A stretch of DNA of 48,044 nt. Origin: Candidatus Sedimenticola endophacoides. Its GTDB lineage: Bacteria; Pseudomonadota; Gammaproteobacteria; Chromatiales; Chromatiaceae. The stretch is taken from assembly GCA_003062205.1 (NCBI GenBank), contig PQCP01000107.1, forward strand, positions 1-48,044, given 5' to 3'. Every line of letters begins with the position of its first letter. The stretch's first letter is position 1. This document shows, one piece after another, positions 1,374 through 11,948 of the stretch. The position numbers and the translations under genes were made by a program. Below the pieces are notes generated by a model. That model was not told the origin of the DNA, made no database searches, and saw nothing but the letters and a program-made list of their open reading frames with translations.

Positions 1374-2939
1374 TCAGGCCGTGGTCATGCCGGGGTGTGA
1401 CAGCAGGTCGTGGATCGACTCCTGCTTCAGCACGCGGAGGCAGGCCTCCACCACCTTTGCGTCATAGAGCCTGCCCTGGTTTCTGGTGATCTCCTTCACC
1501 GCTTCGTCGATGCCGAGGGCGGGGCGGTAGGGGCGGTGCGAGGCGATTGCCTCGACTACATCGGCCACCATGAGGATGCGCGCCTGCCGGGAGATGGCAT
1601 CGCCCCCGATACCGTTGGGATAGCCCGAGCCGTCCAGGCGTTCGTGGTGCTGGAGCACGATCTCGGCGATCGGCTCGCCGAAATCCACATCCTTGAGGAT
1701 GTCGTAGCCGACGTCCGGGTGGGTCTTGATGATGGAGAACTCGGTCTCCGAGATGCGCCCCGGCCGGTTGAGGATCTCGGAGGGGACATAGATCTTTCCG
1801 ATATCGTGGATCGAGCCCGCGAAACGGATGCCGTTGATGGTCGACTCATCCAGCCCCATCTCCTCGGCGATTGCGACCGCCAGCCGGGTCACCCGGCGCT
1901 GGTGGCCCGCCGTGTAAGGGTCGCGTTTCTCCACCGTGATGGCCATCGCCTCGATGGTCTGTTCCAGGGTCCTACGCAACTGCTCCAGGGTGCGCTGGCG
2001 CTCCTCCTGGGCGATGTGGCGGGCGGTGTCGAGGCGCAGATGTTTGATGCCGAAAGCGAGGTCGTTCGCCATCTCGTCGAGCATCAGCAACTCTCTGTCA
2101 CTGAAACGGTTGGCCACCGTGCTGTAGAGGCTGAGCGCGCCGATGCACTCGTCGTTGACGATCAGTGGCAGGGCGATGGAGGAGCGGTAGCCCCGCGCCA
2201 GGGCCTGTTCGCGCCATGGCCCGAACTCCGGGTCGCTGGCGATATCGTTGCTGAAGTCGAGCTGTTTGTCGTTGACCGCCCGGGCGGCCGGGTAGAGGTC
2301 GTCGCCCTGGTCCAGGGCAAGGCTGGCGCCGAGCCCCTCAAGGTACCCGTCATGATGTCCGCTGGCGAAGCGGGGCACGATGCGCCCCTGTTTCAGGTAA
2401 CCGACCCAGGCCATGCGGTAGCCACCCAGATTGACCGCCGAGTTGCAGATCGACTCCAGCAGCGGCTGCTCCTCGCTGGCGTGGATCAGCGACTGGTTGA
2501 CGGCACTGAGGGTGCGCAGGGTGCGGATGGTGTTTTCGAGCGAGGCCGAGCGCTCCCTGACGATCTCCTCCAGGGAGGTGCGCATGCGGCGCAGTTCCAT
2601 GTGGGTGTGCACCCGGGCCAGCACCTCTTCGCGCTGGAAGGGCTTGGAGATATAGTCCACACCCCCCACCTCGAAGCCTTTGATGCGGTCCTTTACATCG
2701 TCCAGGGCGCTGATGAAGATCACCGGGACATCCGCGGTCGCGGGCTCGGCCTTGAGACGCCGGCACACCTCGTAGCCGTCGAGATCCGGCATGCGGATAT
2801 CGAGCAGAATCAAATTGGGGGGTTGGGCCTGCGCCGATTGCAGGGCCAGGGTGCCGCTGTTGGAGGGGCGTACCTTGAATCCGGCGTCGGTCAGCAGTTC
2901 GGTAAGGAGTCTGAGGCTGGCCGGGGTATCATCCACCAC
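1374..2939 (-). CDS. Response regulator with REC, GAF-like and HD-GYP domains
   Basis: Predicted two-component output protein that hydrolyses cyclic di-GMP. Numbering from GTG at 2939: a receiver domain (1-120) has the acidic pair D3-D4, phosphoacceptor D47 in LILLDIRMPDLDGYEV and the conserved Lys in YISKPF. A coiled linker follows, then a GAF-like domain (about 150-300). The HD-GYP domain (about 325-515) has H346, the HD pair H378-D379 in SIHDIGK and HHERLDGSGYP at 431-441, all key residues intact. Repeat R begins at 2941, immediately before the gene. The frame continues upstream through R only to a TAA, so the native first few residues and the native promoter and ribosome site have been replaced. 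The remaining protein is nearly complete, but whether it is expressed is uncertain. It converges on the HlyD remnant. Confidence 0.88.
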   Translation of the reverse strand: MVDDTPASLRLLTELLTDAGFKVRPSNSGTLALQSAQAQPPNLILLDIRMPDLDGYEVCRRLKAEPATADVPVIFISALDDVKDRIKGFEVGGVDYISKPFQREEVLARVHTHMELRRMRTSLEEIVRERSASLENTIRTLRTLSAVNQSLIHASEEQPLLESICNSAVNLGGYRMAWVGYLKQGRIVPRFASGHHDGYLEGLGASLALDQGDDLYPAARAVNDKQLDFSNDIASDPEFGPWREQALARGYRSSIALPLIVNDECIGALSLYSTVANRFSDRELLMLDEMANDLAFGIKHLRLDTARHIAQEERQRTLEQLRRTLEQTIEAMAITVEKRDPYTAGHQRRVTRLAVAIAEEMGLDESTINGIRFAGSIHDIGKIYVPSEILNRPGRISETEFSIIKTHPDVGYDILKDVDFGEPIAEIVLQHHERLDGSGYPNGIGGDAISRQARILMVADVVEAIASHRPYRPALGIDEAVKEITRNQGRLYDAKVVEACLRVLKQESIHDLLSHPGMTTA

Positions 2940-2940
2940 C

Positions 2941-3239
2941 GCTAACCGCCATGGAGAGCGAAGCGAAGGCGGTTAGTCCCCGATAGGCGTAGGCGCGGTT
3001 GTATGGCCGCAGTTACGACCGATAGGGAGTGACGTAGGGCATACAAATAGCGCATTCGACACGCCGTAGAGTCATTGTGGTCATCATGACGGAGTTGCGC
3101 ACGAGCAGCTTTGCTGCAATGTGCGGGACGGAGTCGTGATGAGCGCAGGACGGTCGGGGCAGTAACGGCTGTCGCGTTGGCGAGTCGATTTTGGGGACTG
3201 GGATGTCCCAAAATCTTTCACGAGGTAGCGACACTCTTG
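2941..3239 (-). repeat. Repeat R, copy A (299 bp, minus orientation)
   Basis: One of five copies of a 299-bp sequence that starts CAAGAGTGTCGCTACC and ends GGCGGTTAGC. This copy differs from the others at one base (GCGCATTCGAC versus GCGCATCCGAC). Its 3' end abuts the HD-GYP regulator gene and its 5' side adjoins segment X. Stem-loops are described under copy B. Confidence 0.96.
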
Positions 3240-3511
3240 CAGGATGTTACCGGTTCCGGCACTCGCTGCCTGCTTGGATTGAATGGTCTGCTCTTCCACG
3301 ATAGGGTACCTGGTAGGGCCAAATGTCCGCTCCGTTCCGGCCTGTGCCAACCCGCCAAGGCGTCTGCCCGCCACCTCTGCCGTTCCCGGGAAGCCACGAG
3401 TCAGCGGTAATGTGGCAGCCATCCAGGCCCCGTGCCCCGTGCCCTGCGCGTTGCCCCCGATCCGCCACCTCCTACTGTGATGTCGTGATCAGCGTTTTTC
3501 CTCTACAATTC
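3240..3511 (-). other. Segment X, copy 1: unidentified 272-bp sequence upstream of R
   Basis: This sequence lies between R copy A and an IS1380 left end, and is repeated at 4789-5060. On the minus strand two overlapping frames stay open toward R: one from an ATG at about 3422 that runs on into R, and a 73-codon frame at 3247-3468. Neither resembles a protein I recognise. By analogy with the other R copies, which follow 5' parts of transposase genes, X may be the left end of a third IS, but I cannot show that. Confidence 0.5.
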
Positions 3512-3815
3512 TAGCCCGAATTATTCATAAAAAAGGGCGCACCTCGTTCAACCAATTGATATAATTGGTATTTCGCCAAAAACGCTTCGGTGAAGCTAAA
3601 CGAGGTCGCCCCATGTCCAAGTCTACCCAAGAACCGCTGAGATTTCTCCCCGTTGACGGTCTGAGCGTGCGTGGCGATTTTGACGGCGGCGCCTTGTCCT
3701 CGGATTTCGGTCCCATGATTCTACGCGGCCTCGACCGCCAAATCGGCTTGACCGAGCGCTTGGCCTGCGCCTTCAACGACCAGCGCCATCCATCCTATAT
3801 CACTCACAAGCTACA
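3512..3815 (+). pseudogene. IS1380-family element, left end plus transposase 5' fragment (1)
   Basis: The terminal inverted repeat starts TAGCCCGAATTATTCATAA at 3512. The right ends elsewhere in the window carry the same sequence with 17 of 19 bases matching. A small palindrome (CCAATT-5-AATTGG, 3551-3567) holding TATAAT precedes ATG at 3613, which has GAGGT about six bases upstream. The reading frame, MSKSTQEPLRFLPVDGLSVR then DFDGGALSSDFGPMILRGLD and GLTERLACAFNDQRHPSYIT, is the typical N-terminus of IS1380-family DDE transposases. After about 67 codons it is cut by repeat R. Catalytic residues lie further on and are missing, so no active enzyme is made. Confidence 0.75.
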
Positions 3816-4114
3816 CAAGAGTGTCGCTACCTCGTGAAAGATTTTGGGACATCCCAGTCCCCAAAATCGACTCGCCAACGCGACAGCCGTTACTGCCCCG
3901 ACCGTCCTGCGCTCATCACGACTCCGTCCCGCACATTGCAGCAAAGCTGCTCGTGCGCAACTCCGTCATGATGACCACAATGACTCTACGGCGTGTCGGA
4001 TGCGCTATTTGTATGCCCTACGTCACTCCCTATCGGTCGTAACTGCGGCCATACAACCGCGCCTACGCCTATCGGGGACTAACCGCCTTCGCTTCGCTCT
4101 CCATGGCGGTTAGC
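3816..4114 (+). repeat. Repeat R, copy B (299 bp, plus orientation)
   Basis: Reference copy for the structure. Three stem-loops are visible. (1) 3840-3868: GATTTTGGG pairs with the mirrored CCCAAAATC around a short loop. (2) 3914-3973: outer arms CATCACGAC/GTCATGATG, then CGCAC/GTGCG and GCAGC/GCTGC around AAA. (3) 4079-4113: CTAACCGCC/GGCGGTTAG, a nine-pair stem closing 17 bases at the very 3' end. The copy follows IS1380 transposase codon 67 and is followed by GAATGTGGCG and another IS1380 left end. Small frames exist on both strands but none looks like a gene. Confidence 0.96.
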
Positions 4115-4132
4115 GAATGTGGCGTTTATTTC

Positions 4133-4277
4133 TAGCCCGAATTATTCATAAAAAAGGGCGCACCTCGTTCAACCAATTGATATAATTGGTATTTCGCCAA
4201 AAACGCTTCGGTGAAGCTAAACGAGGTCGCCCCATGTCCAAGTCTACCCAAGAACCGCTGAGATTTCTCCCCGTTGA
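4133..4277 (+). pseudogene. IS1380-family element, left end fragment (2)
   Basis: The same left inverted repeat, leader and ATG (4234) as fragment 1, but identity stops at 4277, after about 15 codons. The sequence then diverges and the frame meets a stop (TGA near 4298). The 78 bases from 4278 to 4355 match nothing else in the window. A deletion or illegitimate junction inside the IS is the simplest reading. Confidence 0.7.
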
Positions 4278-4355
4278 TGAGAGTGCCCACGTAATCTGAT
4301 GTGGTGATCATCTGATTATTTGATGGCAGTAAACACAACGGCCGATGACCTGTCT

Positions 4356-4489
4356 TAGCCCGAATGTTTCATAAACCATTAGGTGACCACAAATACCGTA
4401 CAACCAGACTAGGGTATTAGCCGAGAACTAGGCAGGCCGGTAACTGTTAGCGGGGCGACGATCATTTTTTCGGGGTTGTAGCGTCCATC
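4356..4489 (-). mobile_element. IS1380-family right end (inverted), 134 bp
   Basis: Begins TAGCCCGAATGTTTCATAA, matching the left-end repeat at 17 of 19 bases, and is the exact inverse of 5664-5797. It joins R copy C directly. With copy D and its right end it gives 433-bp inverted arms (4356-4788 and 5365-5797). The bases outside the two outer ends (GTCT left, GGCG right) are not a target duplication. Confidence 0.75.
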
Positions 4490-4788
4490 GCTAACCGCCA
4501 TGGAGAGCGAAGCGAAGGCGGTTAGTCCCCGATAGGCGTAGGCGCGGTTGTATGGCCGCAGTTACGACCGATAGGGAGTGACGTAGGGCATACAAATAGC
4601 GCATCCGACACGCCGTAGAGTCATTGTGGTCATCATGACGGAGTTGCGCACGAGCAGCTTTGCTGCAATGTGCGGGACGGAGTCGTGATGAGCGCAGGAC
4701 GGTCGGGGCAGTAACGGCTGTCGCGTTGGCGAGTCGATTTTGGGGACTGGGATGTCCCAAAATCTTTCACGAGGTAGCGACACTCTTG
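4490..4788 (-). repeat. Repeat R, copy C (299 bp, minus orientation)
   Basis: Identical to copies B, D and E as far as I can read. The 3' side continues into the inverted IS1380 right end (4356-4489); the 5' side adjoins segment X copy 2. Confidence 0.96.
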
Positions 4789-5060
4789 CAGGATGTTACC
4801 GGTTCCGGCACTCGCTGCCTGCTTGGATTGAATGGTCTGCTCTTCCACGATAGGGTACCTGGTAGGGCCAAATGTCCGCTCCGTTCCGGCCTGTGCCAAC
4901 CCGCCAAGGCGTCTGCCCGCCACCTCTGCCGTTCCCGGGAAGCCACGAGTCGGCGGTAATGTGGCAGCCATCCAGGCCCCGTGCCCCGTGCCCTGCGCGT
5001 TGCCCCCGATCCGCCACCTCCTACTGTGATGTCGTGATCAGCGTTTTTCCTCTACAATTC
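4789..5060 (-). other. Segment X, copy 2
   Basis: The same 272-bp sequence as 3240-3511, with one base difference (GTCGGCGG for GTCAGCGG) that changes Leu to Pro in the longest minus-strand frame. It is unidentified and has no recognisable protein or RNA motif. Confidence 0.5.
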
Positions 5061-5364
5061 TAGCCCGAATTATTCATAAAAAAGGGCGCACCTCGTTCAA
5101 CCAATTGATATAATTGGTATTTCGCCAAAAACGCTTCGGTGAAGCTAAACGAGGTCGCCCCATGTCCAAGTCTACCCAAGAACCGCTGAGATTTCTCCCC
5201 GTTGACGGTCTGAGCGTGCGTGGCGATTTTGACGGCGGCGCCTTGTCCTCGGATTTCGGTCCCATGATTCTACGCGGCCTCGACCGCCAAATCGGCTTGA
5301 CCGAGCGCTTGGCCTGCGCCTTCAACGACCAGCGCCATCCATCCTATATCACTCACAAGCTACA
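5061..5364 (+). pseudogene. IS1380-family element, left end plus transposase 5' fragment (3)
   Basis: Sequence-identical counterpart of 3512-3815, with the transposase ATG at 5162. It is cut by R copy D at the same base as fragment 1, after about 67 codons. Together with the right end at 5664-5797 this is a complete pair of IS termini whose middle (most of a gene expected to be about 1.3 kb) has been replaced by R. Confidence 0.75.
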
Positions 5365-5663
5365 CAAGAGTGTCGCTACCTCGTGAAAGATTTTGGGACA
5401 TCCCAGTCCCCAAAATCGACTCGCCAACGCGACAGCCGTTACTGCCCCGACCGTCCTGCGCTCATCACGACTCCGTCCCGCACATTGCAGCAAAGCTGCT
5501 CGTGCGCAACTCCGTCATGATGACCACAATGACTCTACGGCGTGTCGGATGCGCTATTTGTATGCCCTACGTCACTCCCTATCGGTCGTAACTGCGGCCA
5601 TACAACCGCGCCTACGCCTATCGGGGACTAACCGCCTTCGCTTCGCTCTCCATGGCGGTTAGC
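5365..5663 (+). repeat. Repeat R, copy D (299 bp, plus orientation)
   Basis: Same sequence and stem-loops as copy B. It sits between the IS1380 transposase 5' fragment and the IS1380 right end, in the sense direction of the transposase. A frame from 5370 reads through R and the right end to 5744 with a single internal TAA (5589-5591), but no homolog is recognised. Confidence 0.96.
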
Positions 5664-5797
5664 GATGGACGCTACAACCCCGAAAAAATGATCGTCGCCC
5701 CGCTAACAGTTACCGGCCTGCCTAGTTCTCGGCTAATACCCTAGTCTGGTTGTACGGTATTTGTGGTCACCTAATGGTTTATGAAACATTCGGGCTA
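5664..5797 (+). mobile_element. IS1380-family right end, 134 bp
   Basis: Ends in ATGAAACATTCGGGCTA, the inverse of the left terminal repeat with two mismatches over 19 bases. It directly follows R copy D. The same R plus right-end junction occurs at 4489/4490 and 47916/47917, so the 433-bp combination is itself a repeated unit. The 91 bases to trmO hold no recognised feature. Confidence 0.75.
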
Positions 5798-6633: not shown

Positions 6634-7362
6634 TCAGTCTCGCTTGCGCTCACCGAAGCGGATCACCTTTTTCTGCGGGGAGAGGTTGATCTCGTCGATC
6701 ACCGCGCCGGGGCGTGCGCTCATCATCAGCCAGACCGCTTCGGCGACATCCGTGGGTTGCAGGTGGTTGTCAGGGGCGTCACCCGGGGCGAAGCCGAGGT
6801 GGTCGAAAAAGCTGCTGTGGACCATGCCGGGGTTGACGATGCCGATGCGCACCGGCGAGGCCGCGCACTCCTCGCGCAGTGATTGCGCCAGACCGCGCAG
6901 GGCGAATTTGGTCGCCGCGTACACCGCGCCGCGCGCGCCTCCGGCAAGGGCAGCCTCGGAGCCCATGAAGATCAGGTTGGCGTTCTCTCCGTGGCGCTTG
7001 AGGTGGGGCAGGAACTCGCGCGCCAGCAGCACCTGGCTGGTCAGGTTGATGTCGATCAGTTCGCGGATCTGGCGGGCCGAGAACTCCTCCAGCGACCCAA
7101 AACGACCGACCCCGGCGTTACAGATCACGCTGCCGATGCCGGGGTGGGTTCGGCGCAGCGCCTTCAGCGCCTCGGGCAGGGCGTCGAGCCGACCCAGGTC
7201 GAGGTCTACGCCGGTAAACTCCGACGGCCAGTGGCCGGAGGTGCTCATGGAGCGCGCCACGCCGATGACGTGGCATCCCTCGGCGAGCAGCTTTTCGCAG
7301 ACGGCGCGGCCGATGCCGCGGCTGGCGCCGGTGACCAGGACGGTGGGCCGGGGATCTTTCAT
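6634..7362 (-). CDS. Short-chain dehydrogenase/reductase (SDR)
   Basis: Classical SDR oxidoreductase of 242 residues, substrate unknown. Visible motifs are the NAD(P)-binding TGASRGIG (11-18), CNAG (81-84), Asn106 in DINLTS, Ser135 and the catalytic YAATK (Tyr148, Lys152). The whole active-site tetrad is present. Arg15 in the glycine motif and the basic-residue context favour NADP, but that is inference. It is the last gene of a minus-strand operon; its ATG overlaps the stop of the upstream nucleosidase-like gene in ATGA, implying translational coupling. It converges on trmO with 43 bases between them. Confidence 0.9.
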   Translation of the reverse strand: MKDPRPTVLVTGASRGIGRAVCEKLLAEGCHVIGVARSMSTSGHWPSEFTGVDLDLGRLDALPEALKALRRTHPGIGSVICNAGVGRFGSLEEFSARQIRELIDINLTSQVLLAREFLPHLKRHGENANLIFMGSEAALAGGARGAVYAATKFALRGLAQSLREECAASPVRIGIVNPGMVHSSFFDHLGFAPGDAPDNHLQPTDVAEAVWLMMSARPGAVIDEINLSPQKKVIRFGERKRD

Positions 7363-7955
7363 GGCGCGGTGTCCTCCAGGGTGTCGATCAGGTGGTCGAG
7401 GTGGGGTAGGTTGTCGCTAATCAGTTCGGAGACCATGCGGCCGTTGATCCGCGTTGCCGGGTTGCGGATGTTGTCGGAGACGATCTTCATGCAGGCGACG
7501 CGCCGGGGTGGCGCGAAACGCCGGGCGGTGCTGAAAAAGGCGTACCCCTCCATGTCCAGCAGGGCCTCGCGGGGGTAGTCGAAGCGGGCCTCCGGGAGGC
7601 TGATCAGCGGCGCCAGGCCGATGCCGTCGAGGTGCGGGGCGGCGGTGGACAGCTCCCGGCCCTCCATACCGTCGCGTACCGAGCTGGCGAGGAAGGGGCT
7701 GCCGACTTCGGCCTCGGGGTGGCCGGCGATGCCGATGTTGATCCAGGCATCCGTGGGGCGTGCCGGGGTGCGCCCGCGCAGCCAGTGACACGCCCCGGCC
7801 GCGTTGTCGCGGCCCACGCCGCAGATCACCAGGCGGATTTCGTCACGCCGGTAGAGCGGGTAGGGGTGGGGCCGGTTGTCACGTACCAGGCCGAACCGGT
7901 GGCGGATCGGTCTGGCCTCGGCCGGCAGGGCCACGAGCAGGTGCAGGGGGGTCAT
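7359..7955 (-). CDS. Nucleoside phosphorylase / MTA-SAH nucleosidase-like protein
   Basis: Short (198 residues) member of the PNP/UDP phosphorylase superfamily, closest in motifs to methylthioadenosine/S-adenosylhomocysteine nucleosidase-like proteins. Seen: PAEARP with Glu13 where MTAN has its catalytic acid, NIGIAG (73-78), DMEGYAFF with Glu136 in the purine/ribose-binding position, and KIVSDN with Asp161 in the position of the MTAN catalytic Asp. Authentic MTANs have about 230 residues, so the substrate may differ; hopanoid-associated phosphorylases share this shape. It overlaps the glycosyltransferase gene upstream and the SDR gene downstream by four bases each. No claim about the physiological substrate can be made. 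Confidence 0.75.
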   Translation of the reverse strand: MTPLHLLVALPAEARPIRHRFGLVRDNRPHPYPLYRRDEIRLVICGVGRDNAAGACHWLRGRTPARPTDAWINIGIAGHPEAEVGSPFLASSVRDGMEGRELSTAAPHLDGIGLAPLISLPEARFDYPREALLDMEGYAFFSTARRFAPPRRVACMKIVSDNIRNPATRINGRMVSELISDNLPHLDHLIDTLEDTAP

Positions 7956-8797
7956 CCGTCCGGGGCCGGGGCGTGGACGTTCTGGAGGCGCCGGTAGCGC
8001 CCGGCCTCGGCGTGGCGGCCGCGCTTTTCGGCCCCGTTGGCCAGGATCGCGGCCTTGGCGGCGAGCGTGGCCCGGGCGGCCTCCAGCTGTGGGCGGTTGA
8101 GTTCACCGCTGCCAATGAGCTTCTCCAGGGCATGGACGCGGAAGCGGTCCATGCCCCAGTGGCGGCGCGAGAGCTGGTCCGCGTGGCCGCCGTATTTGAC
8201 GATCTGCGGCTGTTTCACGAAATCCACCCGATGGTGGGCGCAGATGCGCAGCCACAGGTCGTAGTCCTCGCAGGCGGGCAGGTGCTCGTCGAACAGGCCC
8301 ACGCGGTCGAACAGGTCCCGGTGGATCAGGGCGGCGGAGGGGGAGATGACGCACAGCGGCAGGCAGTGGGGAAAGATATCGCCGCCGTATTTGCGGTGCT
8401 TGCGCATCGGGTTGACGCGTACGCCGTTGCGCACCCAGATCTCTTCGGTGTGGCTGATCAGGCAGTCGCCGGTGCGCAGTTGGCCGAGTTGGGCCTCCAG
8501 TTTGCCCGGCAGCCACTCGTCGTCGGAGTCGAGCAGGGCGATCCATTCTCCCCGGGCGGCGCGGATACCCCGGTTGCGCGCGCTGCTCACCCCGTGGTTG
8601 GACTGGCGGATGTAGCGGGCGGCGGGGAAGTCGCGGGCGACCAGCGCTTCTGTGCCGTCATTCGATCCGTCGTCCACCACGATCAACTCCAGCGGCGGCA
8701 GGCTCTGCGCCTGGACCGAGCGCAGGGCGCGCCCCAGGAGCGTGGCGCGGTTGTGGGTGGGGACGATGACCGAGACCCCGATGGCGTTGCCCCCCAT
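7952..8797 (-). CDS. Family 2 glycosyltransferase
   Basis: GT-A fold glycosyltransferase of 281 residues that transfers a sugar from a nucleotide donor. The sequence shows VSVIVPTHNRATLL at the start, VVDDGSNDGT (Asp42, Asp43), the SSARNRG loop, LLDSDDEW (DxD metal site, 90-93) and ACEDYDLWLR with the likely catalytic base near Asp178. There is no transmembrane segment, so it is cytosolic or peripheral. The C-terminal 80 residues are helical and Ala/Arg rich. It lies five bases after the DUF692 gene and overlaps the nucleosidase-like gene, third in a tight five-gene operon. Acceptor and product are unknown: no O-antigen or capsule cluster is nearby. Confidence 0.9.
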   Translation of the reverse strand: MGGNAIGVSVIVPTHNRATLLGRALRSVQAQSLPPLELIVVDDGSNDGTEALVARDFPAARYIRQSNHGVSSARNRGIRAARGEWIALLDSDDEWLPGKLEAQLGQLRTGDCLISHTEEIWVRNGVRVNPMRKHRKYGGDIFPHCLPLCVISPSAALIHRDLFDRVGLFDEHLPACEDYDLWLRICAHHRVDFVKQPQIVKYGGHADQLSRRHWGMDRFRVHALEKLIGSGELNRPQLEAARATLAAKAAILANGAEKRGRHAEAGRYRRLQNVHAPAPDG

Positions 8798-8802
8798 GGT
8801 GT

Positions 8803-9639
8803 TCAGACCGCCAGGTGGCGGCTCGCCCCGCAGCGGGCCCGGGCGACCTCATTGAGCATCTCCTCCAGCGAGGGGATGGTGTCGATGCGCTCGATCAGGG
8901 TGGCCACGGGGCCGAGGCGCTCCAGCGCCAGCAGGTAGAGCTCCCAGACCGGATCGGGTGGCAGGGGGGTGGCCTCCTCGGCCGGTTCGCACAGGGCGGT
9001 GGCGCCCAGGAGGTGGATCTCCCTGACCCGCTGCGCCGGCAGGCGCGCCAGATAGTTGGCGGGGTCGAATCCCTGGTGGACGCTGGAGCCGAGCAGGTTC
9101 TCGATGTCGATCAGGATCAGCGAGCCGGAGCGTTCGGCCACCTCGCTGATGAATTGCGCCTCGGGGATCTCCTGCCCATCCGCCTCGGCGGGGACGTTCT
9201 CCAGCAGGAGCGCTTGCCCCAGGGTCTCCTGGACCTGTTGGATGCGTGGCACCAGATGATCGATCATCTCCCGCGAGTGGGGCAGGGGGAACAGGCTGTC
9301 GCGCCGGTCCTCGGAGCCCCCCCAGCAGAGGTGGCCGGAGATCCGCTCCGGGCGCAGACGTTCCGCCAGCCGTGCCAGCCGCCGCAGATACTCCCGGTCC
9401 AGGGGCCAGGGGCTGCCGAGGGCCAGGGAGAGGCTGTGCAGCACCAGCGGATAGTCGCCGCGCAGTCGCTCCAGGGCGCTCAAGGTATCGGCATCCTGCT
9501 CCAGAAATCCCTCGGCGGTCACCTCGAACCAATCGACATCGGGGTGGCTCTCCAGCACATAGGGGATATACTCCCGGCGCAGGCGCAGACCGAAACCGGG
9601 AAACGGCTCTTGCGGCGGCGTTGGAGCATCGGCGTTCAT
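8803..9639 (-). CDS. DUF692-family protein (multinuclear iron oxygenase-like), divergent
   Basis: 278 residues with the DUF692 (MbnB/TglH/BufB-like) TIM-barrel pattern: LGLR-like GFGLRLRREY, DWFEVTAEGF, LVLHSLSLALGS (His68), RISGHLCWGG (His103), LLLENV (Glu147), LILIDIENLL (Asp178, Asn181), REIHLLGA (His209) and TLIERIDTIPSLEEML (Glu250). Known members bind two or three irons and modify cysteines of partner peptides. Here the usual HLAGH reads HLLGA, and the usual Asp-x-His after it is missing: the stretch reads ATALCEPAEEATPLPPDPVW. That removes conserved ligand positions, so the metal site may be reduced or the activity changed. No precursor peptide or DUF2063-type partner is beside it. It lies 26 bases after cnoX. 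Confidence 0.85.
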   Translation of the reverse strand: MNADAPTPPQEPFPGFGLRLRREYIPYVLESHPDVDWFEVTAEGFLEQDADTLSALERLRGDYPLVLHSLSLALGSPWPLDREYLRRLARLAERLRPERISGHLCWGGSEDRRDSLFPLPHSREMIDHLVPRIQQVQETLGQALLLENVPAEADGQEIPEAQFISEVAERSGSLILIDIENLLGSSVHQGFDPANYLARLPAQRVREIHLLGATALCEPAEEATPLPPDPVWELYLLALERLGPVATLIERIDTIPSLEEMLNEVARARCGASRHLAV

Positions 9640-9665: not shown

Positions 9666-10529
9666 TCAGTGCAACAGGTTGAACATGCGTCTGCGGTACT
9701 GGGTCACCAGTTCGCCGCTGTCGCCAAGCATCGAAAAGACCGCCAGCATCCCCTTGCGTCCGGCGTCGTCTCCATAGTCGCGGTCTTTGCTCATCAGTTG
9801 CAGCAGCAGATCCAGGGCGGCGCCCAGGTCGTTTTCGGAGATGCGGTAGGCGGCGAGTTGGTGGAGCTGCTCGCTGGTGGCGCTGCCGTTGGCCAGGGCC
9901 TGGTTCAGTTGTGCCTCGGCGGGGGCCTGCGCCAGCAGTCGGTCGAAGGCGAAGCGGGCCCGCAGACCGCTTGCCTCGGGGCTCTGCTGCTGTTCGGCGG
10001 GCAGGGCGGCGAGCAGTCGCTCCGCCTCGTCGATCTCCCCCAGAGCCGCCTTCAGGCCGATGTAGGCGATCTGTATCTGTTGGTTGCCGGGCTCCTCCGC
10101 GCGGGCGCGTTCCAGCAGGGTCAGGGCCGGTTCGATCTCTCCCCGGCCGATGAGGGCGTTGGCCTCGGCCAGCAGGCCGTCACCGGCACTGGCGATGTGG
10201 GCGCCGAGGAAGGCGCGGATCTCTGCTTCGGGTAGGGCGCCGTTGAATTCGTCCACCGCCTCGCCGCCGATGAACAGTTTGACGCTGGGGATGCTGCGGA
10301 TGCCGTAACGCATGGCCAGCCCCTGCTGCTGCTCGGTGTCGACCTTGGCCAGGATAAACTTCCCGTCATACTCCGCGGCGAGCTTGGCGAGCACCGGCAT
10401 GAGCATTTTGCACGGCTGACACCAATCGGCCCAGAAATCCACCAGCACCGGTACGGTGTGGGAGTTCTGCAGGACGTAGGTGTCGAAGGTTTCCTCTGTG
10501 ACGTCAACGATATAGCGTGATTCCGACAT
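9666..10529 (-). CDS. cnoX: Thioredoxin-like co-chaperone CnoX (YbbN)
   Basis: 287-residue protein with an N-terminal thioredoxin domain (1-110) and a C-terminal TPR-like helical region (about 115-287), the CnoX/YbbN architecture. Family members act in the cytoplasm as chaperone-holdases, passing substrates to GroEL or DnaK under oxidative stress. The active site WCQPC (Cys37, Cys40) has both cysteines, unlike the E. coli SxxC form, so it may also exchange disulfides. The cis-proline loop IRSIPSVKLF is present. ATG at 10529 is chosen because the thioredoxin fold starts there (MSESRYIVDV); the frame opens 71 codons earlier without homology. It is the first gene of the minus-strand operon, with a TATAAT box 41 bases upstream. 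Confidence 0.9.
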   Translation of the reverse strand: MSESRYIVDVTEETFDTYVLQNSHTVPVLVDFWADWCQPCKMLMPVLAKLAAEYDGKFILAKVDTEQQQGLAMRYGIRSIPSVKLFIGGEAVDEFNGALPEAEIRAFLGAHIASAGDGLLAEANALIGRGEIEPALTLLERARAEEPGNQQIQIAYIGLKAALGEIDEAERLLAALPAEQQQSPEASGLRARFAFDRLLAQAPAEAQLNQALANGSATSEQLHQLAAYRISENDLGAALDLLLQLMSKDRDYGDDAGRKGMLAVFSMLGDSGELVTQYRRRMFNLLH

Positions 10530-10808: not shown

Positions 10809-11948
10809 TTGAGTAAGCCTGCGTTATTGGTCCTGGAAGATGGAACGGTTTTCCGGGGAGAGTCGATCGGTGCCGACGGTCAGACGGTCGGTGAGGTGGT
10901 GTTCAATACGGCAATCACGGGGTATCAGGAGATCCTGACCGACCCCTCCTATTCGCGGCAGATCGTCACCCTGACCTATCCGCACATCGGTAACACGGGG
11001 ACCAATGACGAGGATGAGGAGTCGTCCGCCATCCACGCCGCCGGGCTGGTGATCCGTGATCTGCCCCTGCTGGCGAGCAACTGGCGCAACCGCCGGTCCC
11101 TGGATGCTTATCTGCGCGACAACAATATCGTCGCCATCGCCGATATCGACACCCGTAAGCTGACCCGGATCCTGCGTGAGAAGGGGGCCCAGAGCGGCTG
11201 CATCGTCGCCGGCGAGTCCCTTGACGAGACGGCGGCCCTGGCCGCCGCGCGGGCCTTCCCCGGACTGAAGGGGATGGATCTGGCCAGGGAGGTGACCGTC
11301 GCTTCCCCCTATGCCTGGGTTCAGGGCAGCTGGAGCCTGGAGGGCGGCCTGCCCGACCCGGCGGAGTCCCCCGAAGAGCAGTTGCCGCACCACGTGGTGG
11401 CCTACGACTACGGGGTCAAACGCAATATCCTGCGCATGCTGGTGGATCGCGGCTGCCGCGTCACCGTGGTCCCGGCCCAAACACCGGCCGCTGAGGTGAT
11501 GGCGATGAACCCGGATGGGGTCTTCCTCTCCAACGGTCCCGGTGATCCGGAGCCGTGCGACTACGCCATCGCCGCGATCCGGGAGATCGTCGACAGCGGT
11601 GTGCCTACTTTCGGTATCTGTCTCGGTCACCAGCTCCTGGCCCTGGCTAGTGGGGCCCGGACCATCAAGATGAAATTCGGCCATCACGGCGCCAACCACC
11701 CGGTGCAGGATCTTTCCGCCAAGACGGTGATGATCTCCAGCCAGAATCATGGTTTCGCGGTGGACGAGCAGAGCCTGCCCGCGACCCTCCGGGCGACCCA
11801 CCGCTCGCTGTTCGACGAATCCCTGCAGGGGATTCACCGCACCGACCGGCCCGCGTTCGGTTTCCAGGGGCACCCCGAGGCGAGCCCCGGTCCGCACGAT
11901 GTGGCGCCGGTGTTCGATCACTTCATCGAGCTGATCGAGGCGCGCTGA
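10809..11948 (+). CDS. carA: Carbamoyl phosphate synthase small subunit
   Basis: Glutaminase subunit of carbamoyl phosphate synthase. It hydrolyses glutamine and channels ammonia to CarB for pyrimidine and arginine synthesis. 379 residues, the normal length. The N-terminal CarA domain holds [15 protein letters not shown]; the class I glutamine amidotransferase domain has [15 protein letters not shown] with nucleophile Cys271, and [10 protein letters not shown] with His355 and Glu357. The start is TTG at 10809, with AGGGGAC upstream; E. coli carA also begins with UUG, and no in-frame ATG fits the conserved N-terminus. carB follows after 161 bases that hold GC-rich stem-forming sequence but no clear terminator, so the two are likely co-transcribed. 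Confidence 0.97.

Follow-up and report, generated by a model that had tools for sequence, protein, structure and literature searches.

A clade of DUF692 proteins that retains the diiron ligands of MNIOs and lacks the Asp-x-His pair of their third iron site

Introduction

The solved multinuclear non-haem iron-dependent oxidative enzymes (MNIOs, family DUF692), MbnB and TglH, share a barrel in which six residues bind two irons (Fe1 and Fe2), and both also carry an Asp-x-His pair and have a partner protein, MbnC and TglI, respectively. The ligands listed for TglH are His71, His107, Glu151, Asp184, His216 and Glu258 at Fe1/Fe2, and Asp184, Asn187, Asp229 and His231 at the third iron, Fe3 (PMC10880893). 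Here, we describe an MNIO gene from Candidatus Sedimenticola endophacoides (Chromatiales, Chromatiaceae), located in a stretch of 48,044 nucleotides that we call the window (contig PQCP01000107.1 of assembly GCA_003062205.1, positions 1 to 48,044). Its product has the same barrel, by prediction, and the same six Fe1/Fe2 ligands as MbnB and TglH, with an Asn three residues after the ligand Asp (D+3), but it lacks the Asp-x-His pair.

In a July 2026 preprint the role of the third MNIO iron site is a matter of speculation: altering its ligands abolishes the activity of HvfB, even though the active cluster consists of two irons (PMC13419390). Loss of Asp-x-His alone is already known from the account of PesH and PflD, active enzymes that beta-hydroxylate Asp in ribosomally synthesized and post-translationally modified peptides (RiPPs) and are without the Fe3 motif, printed there as HxD (PMC13060819); we liken them to the window protein by this description. 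Both are encoded in RiPP clusters that include a precursor; PesH has a partner, PesI, and PflD is fused to a nitroreductase. The window operon, in contrast, has neither room nor a candidate for a precursor. BufB and HvfB, the maturases of bufferins and oxazolins (fold of 3BWW), have sequence, fold and Fe1/Fe2 ligands in common with the window protein and provide its nearest NCBIfam models. In contrast to them, however, it scores under both cut-offs, lacks Asp-x-His and the Asp at the position of the proposed base, and our searches found no DUF2063 partner or precursor for it. Two kinds of MNIO have no separate partner gene reported. MovX (PMC12452194) has a fused RiPP recognition element (RRE)/winged-helix domain, whereas the window protein is a bare barrel of 278 aa; the TIGR04222-associated MNIOs (PMC13419390) have loci that hold a candidate substrate.

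Within the open-licence PMC literature, and as far as our searches show, what is new here is a clade, at a single fixed site on the chromosome, in which Asp-x-His is missing together with the proposed base, the partner and any visible precursor. Evolution has removed Asp-x-His, the base proposed for MbnB and the partner together and left the diiron ligands intact, which offers a natural test of the role of those parts. Being small and possibly independent of a partner, such a protein would also allow measurements of iron loading, redox state and chemistry that are free of the complications that partner and peptide bring to work on MbnB and HvfB. It would further put to the test whether there are MNIOs with a role other than RiPP biosynthesis.

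Fold and iron ligands

The product matches PF05114 (MbnB_TglH_ChrH) with an E-value of 1.8e-68 and 231.1 bits, against a gathering score of 25; a Pfam search at E 0.001 gave this sole match and no sugar isomerase/epimerase profile. The top NCBIfam model is BufB (229.9 bits, under its equivalog cut-off of 310), and the HvfB model gives 158.9 bits, under a cut-off of 360. It is the single MNIO found in its own genome (2.98 Mb). An AlphaFold2 (AF2) model built on eight sequences has a mean predicted local distance difference test score (pLDDT) of 81.7 and a predicted template modelling score of 0.82. The solved folds nearest to it are 3BWW (Z 28.3, root-mean-square deviation 2.2 over 237 residues), TglH (Z 25.6) and MbnB (Z 24.3 to 23.2), and sugar 3-epimerases are the next matches after the solved MNIOs (Z 19.1). 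The window protein is thus predicted to have the MNIO barrel. Strands of the model end at residues 69, 103, 147, 178, 211 and 250, at or adjoining the six predicted ligands.

By alignment, the Fe1/Fe2 equivalents are H68, H103, E147, D178, H209 and E250, all present as first read, and the site-3 Asn is retained as N181. Published descriptions place the corresponding ligand at Asp+3 in TglH (D184/N187) and PbsC (D213/H216), and MbnB sequences have one Asn only, at D+3; for N175 of HvfB, a hand count on the 3BWW alignment does not decide between D+2 and D+3. Since this ligand belongs at Asp+3, where the window protein has N181, loss of all three exclusive Fe3 ligands could be ruled out.

The Asp-x-His pair itself is absent from H209 to W232, the loop that holds it in relatives. 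This loop has 24 residues in the window protein, 24-26 in the clade described below and 25-30 in our comparison set, so the pair has been substituted rather than cut out; residues 217-224 have a pLDDT below 50 in the AF2 model. The first-pass annotation had also counted the change of HLAGH to HLLGA among the lost ligand positions. HLLGA is a true reading, but the second His is no ligand in solved relatives: TglH has Gly there, and in the comparison set the His is kept in 55/63 MNIOs and replaced by Phe, Tyr or Pro in the other eight, with Asp-x-His intact in all 63. The change therefore touches no ligand, and the missing Asp-x-His is the part of that claim that stands.

A clade without Asp-x-His

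We searched 210 genomes of the window's order, 145 of which gave a match, and examined the best 30 loci together with those of an initial search; lower-scoring matches may hold further clade members. The examined loci gave 23 full-length proteins without Asp-x-His, all in this order, and one fragment at a contig end (genome G030) in which the loop is not visible. All 24 group together (support 99/98) in a maximum-likelihood tree built from 87 MNIOs. Asp-x-His is absent from all 23 aligned clade members and present in 63/63 comparison MNIOs, which were chosen by similarity to the query and not at random; its loss is therefore not chance. These counts exclude the locus L016, a fragment, and the locus L037, which has Phe at the position of E250. 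All six Fe1/Fe2 ligands are complete in 23/23 clade and 63/63 comparison proteins, and the site-3 Asn is retained throughout the clade (23/23). The reduced metal site suspected by the first-pass annotation is thus a property of the whole clade, with Asp-x-His gone and Fe1/Fe2 intact. Invariant columns make up 43 of the 258 in the clade, and the chance of all six ligands being retained by luck is, as a rough figure, near 2e-5 if columns are interchangeable. The ratio of nonsynonymous to synonymous substitution rates is 0.07-0.31 in 18 close clade pairs, and the clade is under purifying selection.

Three groups can be distinguished by their motifs. Group A (10 proteins, including that of the window) has D-x-[A/E/S]-N and HL[A/L/S]G[A/S], group B (seven proteins, one genus) D-x-G-N and HLP[D/E], and group C (six proteins, one genus) D-L-N-N and HLAP. 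Replacement of the missing pair by nearby residues, a possibility raised with the original reading, was not seen: the alignment of the 23 members holds no clade-wide His or acidic residue that fills in for Asp-x-His. Three candidates for a clade-wide substitute were rejected, namely Cys217 (invariant in group A, absent in B and C), an acidic residue at 212 (7/7 in group B and confined to it) and the His residues of the loop, which are scattered. Cys217 (codon 8989-8991), found in group A only (10/10), lies within the loop that replaced Asp-x-His, and a C-terminal Cys270 is present in 8/10 members of this group; it is possible that the two form a ligand or redox pair there.

Further positions set the clade apart. 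Asp252 and His189 are absent from all 23 members and present in 63/63 and 62/63 comparison proteins, respectively, and position 173 is Ser in 23/23 against Cys in 61/63. Asp253 is invariant in the clade (23/23), against 38/63 in the comparison set. A hand count of the 7dz9 chain makes position 252 equivalent to Asp240 of MbnB, which has been proposed as a general base and is lacking in TglH too. Judged from the alignment, the clade has lost the Asp that matches this base.

Among 369 genomes of the class, the best 29 other matches all have Asp-x-His. In a phylum sample of 398 genomes, there were two matches beyond the window at E 1e-95, both scoring under ordinary MNIOs of the class; one of them (L216) has Asp-x-His. 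The clade is therefore known here only from the window's order. A scan of viral contigs with the clade alignment found no relative. Ordinary MNIO genes that encode Asp-x-His were found on two IMG/VR contigs with a viral classification (L193, 5001-5810; L194, 5001-5840), and the stretches fetched hold no DUF2063 homologue; these are either viral MNIOs or mis-binned bacterial DNA. The converse loss is seen in L037 (920-1630), from a Reyranella metagenome-assembled genome, where Phe aligns at the Fe2 ligand Glu250 and the D-x-H motif (DSH) is intact.

Partner and precursor

In most comparison loci fetched with enough flank, a DUF2063 gene directly follows the MNIO gene. A profile search of the clade genomes found no DUF2063 in 17/24, that of the window included; in the remaining seven it always lies beside a second, ordinary MNIO (7/7) and never beside the clade gene. 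DUF2282 bufferin precursors occur in 6/24 clade genomes, five beside a second MNIO and one in G030, and the window's own genome matches neither of these two profiles, the only ones used for partners and precursors. The order bufA-bufB-bufC, with a DUF2282-type precursor and a DUF2063 partner, is not seen in the window, where the neighbours are cnoX and a glycosyltransferase family 2 (GT2) gene. The operon leaves 26 bp to cnoX and 5 bp to GT2, followed by 4-bp overlaps at GT2/nucleosidase and nucleosidase/SDR (short-chain dehydrogenase/reductase), so that no precursor gene fits inside it.

One can still imagine an ordinary RiPP maturase with a precursor encoded at another place in the genome and a partner of PME-type 2 or some other unrecognised kind. 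The characterised MNIOs of the papers cited here do act on RiPP precursors, and partners of PME-type 2 and others beyond DUF2063 exist (PMC12452194), whereas our searches covered DUF2063 and DUF2282. We nevertheless consider such a maturase unlikely, as the operon has no place for a precursor, the partner and bufferin genes, where present, go with the second MNIO (except for the DUF2282 gene in G030), and the base proposed for MbnB is lost. The different job that the first-pass annotation had envisaged thus gains indirect support from the missing MbnB-type base, DUF2063 partner and precursor. The DUF2282 gene of G030 (L214; G030:C131:8071-8220) is an orphan bufferin-type precursor gene; this genome has no DUF2063, and its sole MNIO match is the clade-type fragment, on another contig.

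Proposed function

We propose that the gene encodes a diiron-only MNIO that probably needs no DUF2063-type partner and probably acts on something other than a dedicated RiPP precursor, a reading to which we give about an even chance. Two irons would be bound in the Fe1 and Fe2 sites, and a mixed-valent Fe(II)/Fe(III) cluster would activate O2 for a simple oxidation. A two-electron hydroxylation like that of PesH and PflD is the most likely reaction, with electrons from a cellular reductant. The substrate is more likely to be a protein or small metabolite than a RiPP. The adjoining thioredoxins could supply the electrons but, being older residents of that locus, argue for this weakly. Our proposal is inferred from the retention of Fe1/Fe2, the same pair of sites that holds the mixed-valent Fe(II)/Fe(III) pair in the active form of HvfB and MbnB (PMC13419390), from the precedents of PesH and PflD, active MNIOs without the Fe3 motif that perform a two-electron hydroxylation of Asp (PMC13060819), and from the suggestion that PflD needs a cellular reductant (PMC12636437).

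Several points weigh against this proposal. Replacing a single site-3 ligand of HvfB by Ala gives an inactive enzyme with little mixed-valent cluster, and the active mixed-valent state of HvfB depends on its partner HvfC (PMC13419390). By analogy, a protein without both site 3 and a partner could be inactive. The DUF2063 profile would miss partners of PME-type 2, and no substrate was found in our analysis. Group C, moreover, has an Asn at D+2 and a differing loop, HLAP, and given these differences the function of the clade may not be uniform. On the other hand, if the clade were inactive by the HvfB rule, it would be difficult to see why six metal ligands have been retained so strictly. This also bears on the idea of a catalytically dead MNIO with a structural or regulatory role, which would follow the inactive site-3 variants of HvfB (PMC13419390) and PesX, an MNIO-like protein with no detected activity (PMC13060819). 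PesX, however, is described there as being without iron-binding residues, while the clade keeps its six Fe1/Fe2 ligands in 23/23 members under purifying selection, and we regard a dead enzyme as very improbable.

More broadly, it is tempting to see in the clade an MNIO lineage that departed from RiPP biosynthesis. Its members would be diiron-only oxygenases that do without a partner, serve general metabolism or modify proteins, and have been inherited vertically at a fixed place next to carAB within a single bacterial family. Both the DUF2063 or RRE partner and the third iron site would then be tied to RiPP function rather than to the iron chemistry as such. We hold this wider view tentatively, at somewhat short of an even chance.

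Gene neighbourhood

Table 1. Position of the MNIO gene, its loop and its neighbours in the window
Feature	Position	Strand	Remarks
MNIO gene	8803..9639	-	DUF692, PF05114; 278 aa; has the Fe1/Fe2 ligands and N181 but no Asp-x-His for Fe site 3
Residues 219-226 of the MNIO	8962..8985	-	part of loop 209-232, which holds Asp-x-His in relatives; from alignment
cnoX-like thioredoxin-TPR gene	9666..10529	-	287 aa; start codon at 10529; family backbone gene, also found without MNIO
GT2 glycosyltransferase gene	7952..8797	-	281 aa; adjoins MNIO in group A (10/10); class-wide orthologues without MNIO
Purine nucleoside phosphorylase (PNP)/nucleosidase-like gene	7359..7955	-	198 aa; weak match, under curated cut-offs
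SDR-family oxidoreductase gene	6634..7362	-	242 aa
carA	10809..11948	+	divergent; marks conserved chromosomal site of clade MNIO

The MNIO gene is the second of five genes on the same strand, in the order cnoX, MNIO, GT2, nucleosidase-like and SDR, with carA and carB divergent to them (Table 1). The CnoX-like neighbour has a thioredoxin domain (PF00085) followed by tetratricopeptide repeats (TPRs; PF14559 and PF14561). The tight five-gene operon of the first-pass annotation is real, as its coordinates, short gaps and 4-bp overlaps show. A scan for promoters and terminators yielded a single promoter-like site, located on the opposite strand, and a single terminator-like match, which is not above roughly the level expected by chance.

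The association of these genes extends past the window's genome. MNIO and GT2 are adjacent in all 10 group A genomes, CnoX or TrxC lies beside the MNIO in 7/10 and nucleosidase homologues are nearby in 7/10. The full order is found in the window and in G011, and G068 has MNIO-GT2-nucleosidase-SDR and then a contig end. In G011, the SDR gene is split into two open reading frames (L039, 7137-7859), a frameshift or sequence error. The contig of G001, from the window's genus, ends about 100 bp past cnoX, so this genome cannot show whether an MNIO follows. In group B, the MNIO is flanked by TrxC and TrmO in 7/7 and GT2 is found in 0/7 genomes; in group C, TrxC lies beside it in 6/6 and GT2 is elsewhere in the genome in 6/6.

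The same surroundings can be found with the MNIO missing. In seven genomes (G027, G031, G022, G033, G021, G018 and G023), CnoX and TrxC adjoin carA at a site that has no MNIO. In G002, GT2 comes next after CnoX, and in G007 a 101-aa gene separates the two, again with no MNIO. GT2 orthologues (E 1e-60) occur in 34/229 genomes of the class, the window's own included, and nucleosidase homologues adjoin several of them. Because the CnoX/TrxC-carAB surroundings and GT2 genes exist without it, the clade MNIO has either entered or stayed in a chromosomal neighbourhood that is older, and the operon, although real and conserved in group A, names no pathway. The first-pass annotation had taken the operon for an undescribed DUF692 context: its recurrence holds, in particular for MNIO-GT2, but a new pathway does not follow from it, given CnoX/TrxC and GT2 without MNIO and the lack of GT2 in group B. 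We found no paper on an MNIO adjoining cnoX or this GT2 in the open-licence PMC literature.

The seven genomes with CnoX/TrxC beside carA and no MNIO there also rule out CnoX as a dedicated partner gene. They bear likewise on the idea that the Cys-bearing thioredoxin next door, CnoX or TrxC, is itself the substrate. Its presence beside the MNIO in all of groups B (7/7) and C (6/6) and in most of group A would suit such a role, but the same place being occupied without an MNIO makes the link one of inherited position, and a thioredoxin substrate is extremely improbable.

The constant GT2 neighbour in group A, together with the fold matches to sugar 3-epimerases, could also point to a metalloenzyme that has given up oxidative chemistry, such as a sugar isomerase/epimerase-like enzyme that works for the adjoining glycosyltransferase. 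E147, D178, H209 and E250 form a set that we take to resemble the metal site of the sugar isomerase/epimerase superfamily. However, H68 and H103 of the second metal site are kept as well (23/23), group B has the MNIO with GT2 in 0/7, and solved MNIOs are clearly better fold matches than epimerases. Such an enzyme is, in our opinion, distinctly unlikely.

Elsewhere in the window, upstream of trmO, lies a repeated, partly palindromic element (2922-5797). It has inverted arms of 433 nt (4356-4788 and 5365-5797, 100% complementary) and three copies of a 148-nt unit (at 3509, 4130 and 5058, 100% identity), and looks like a mobile or assembly-prone repeat.
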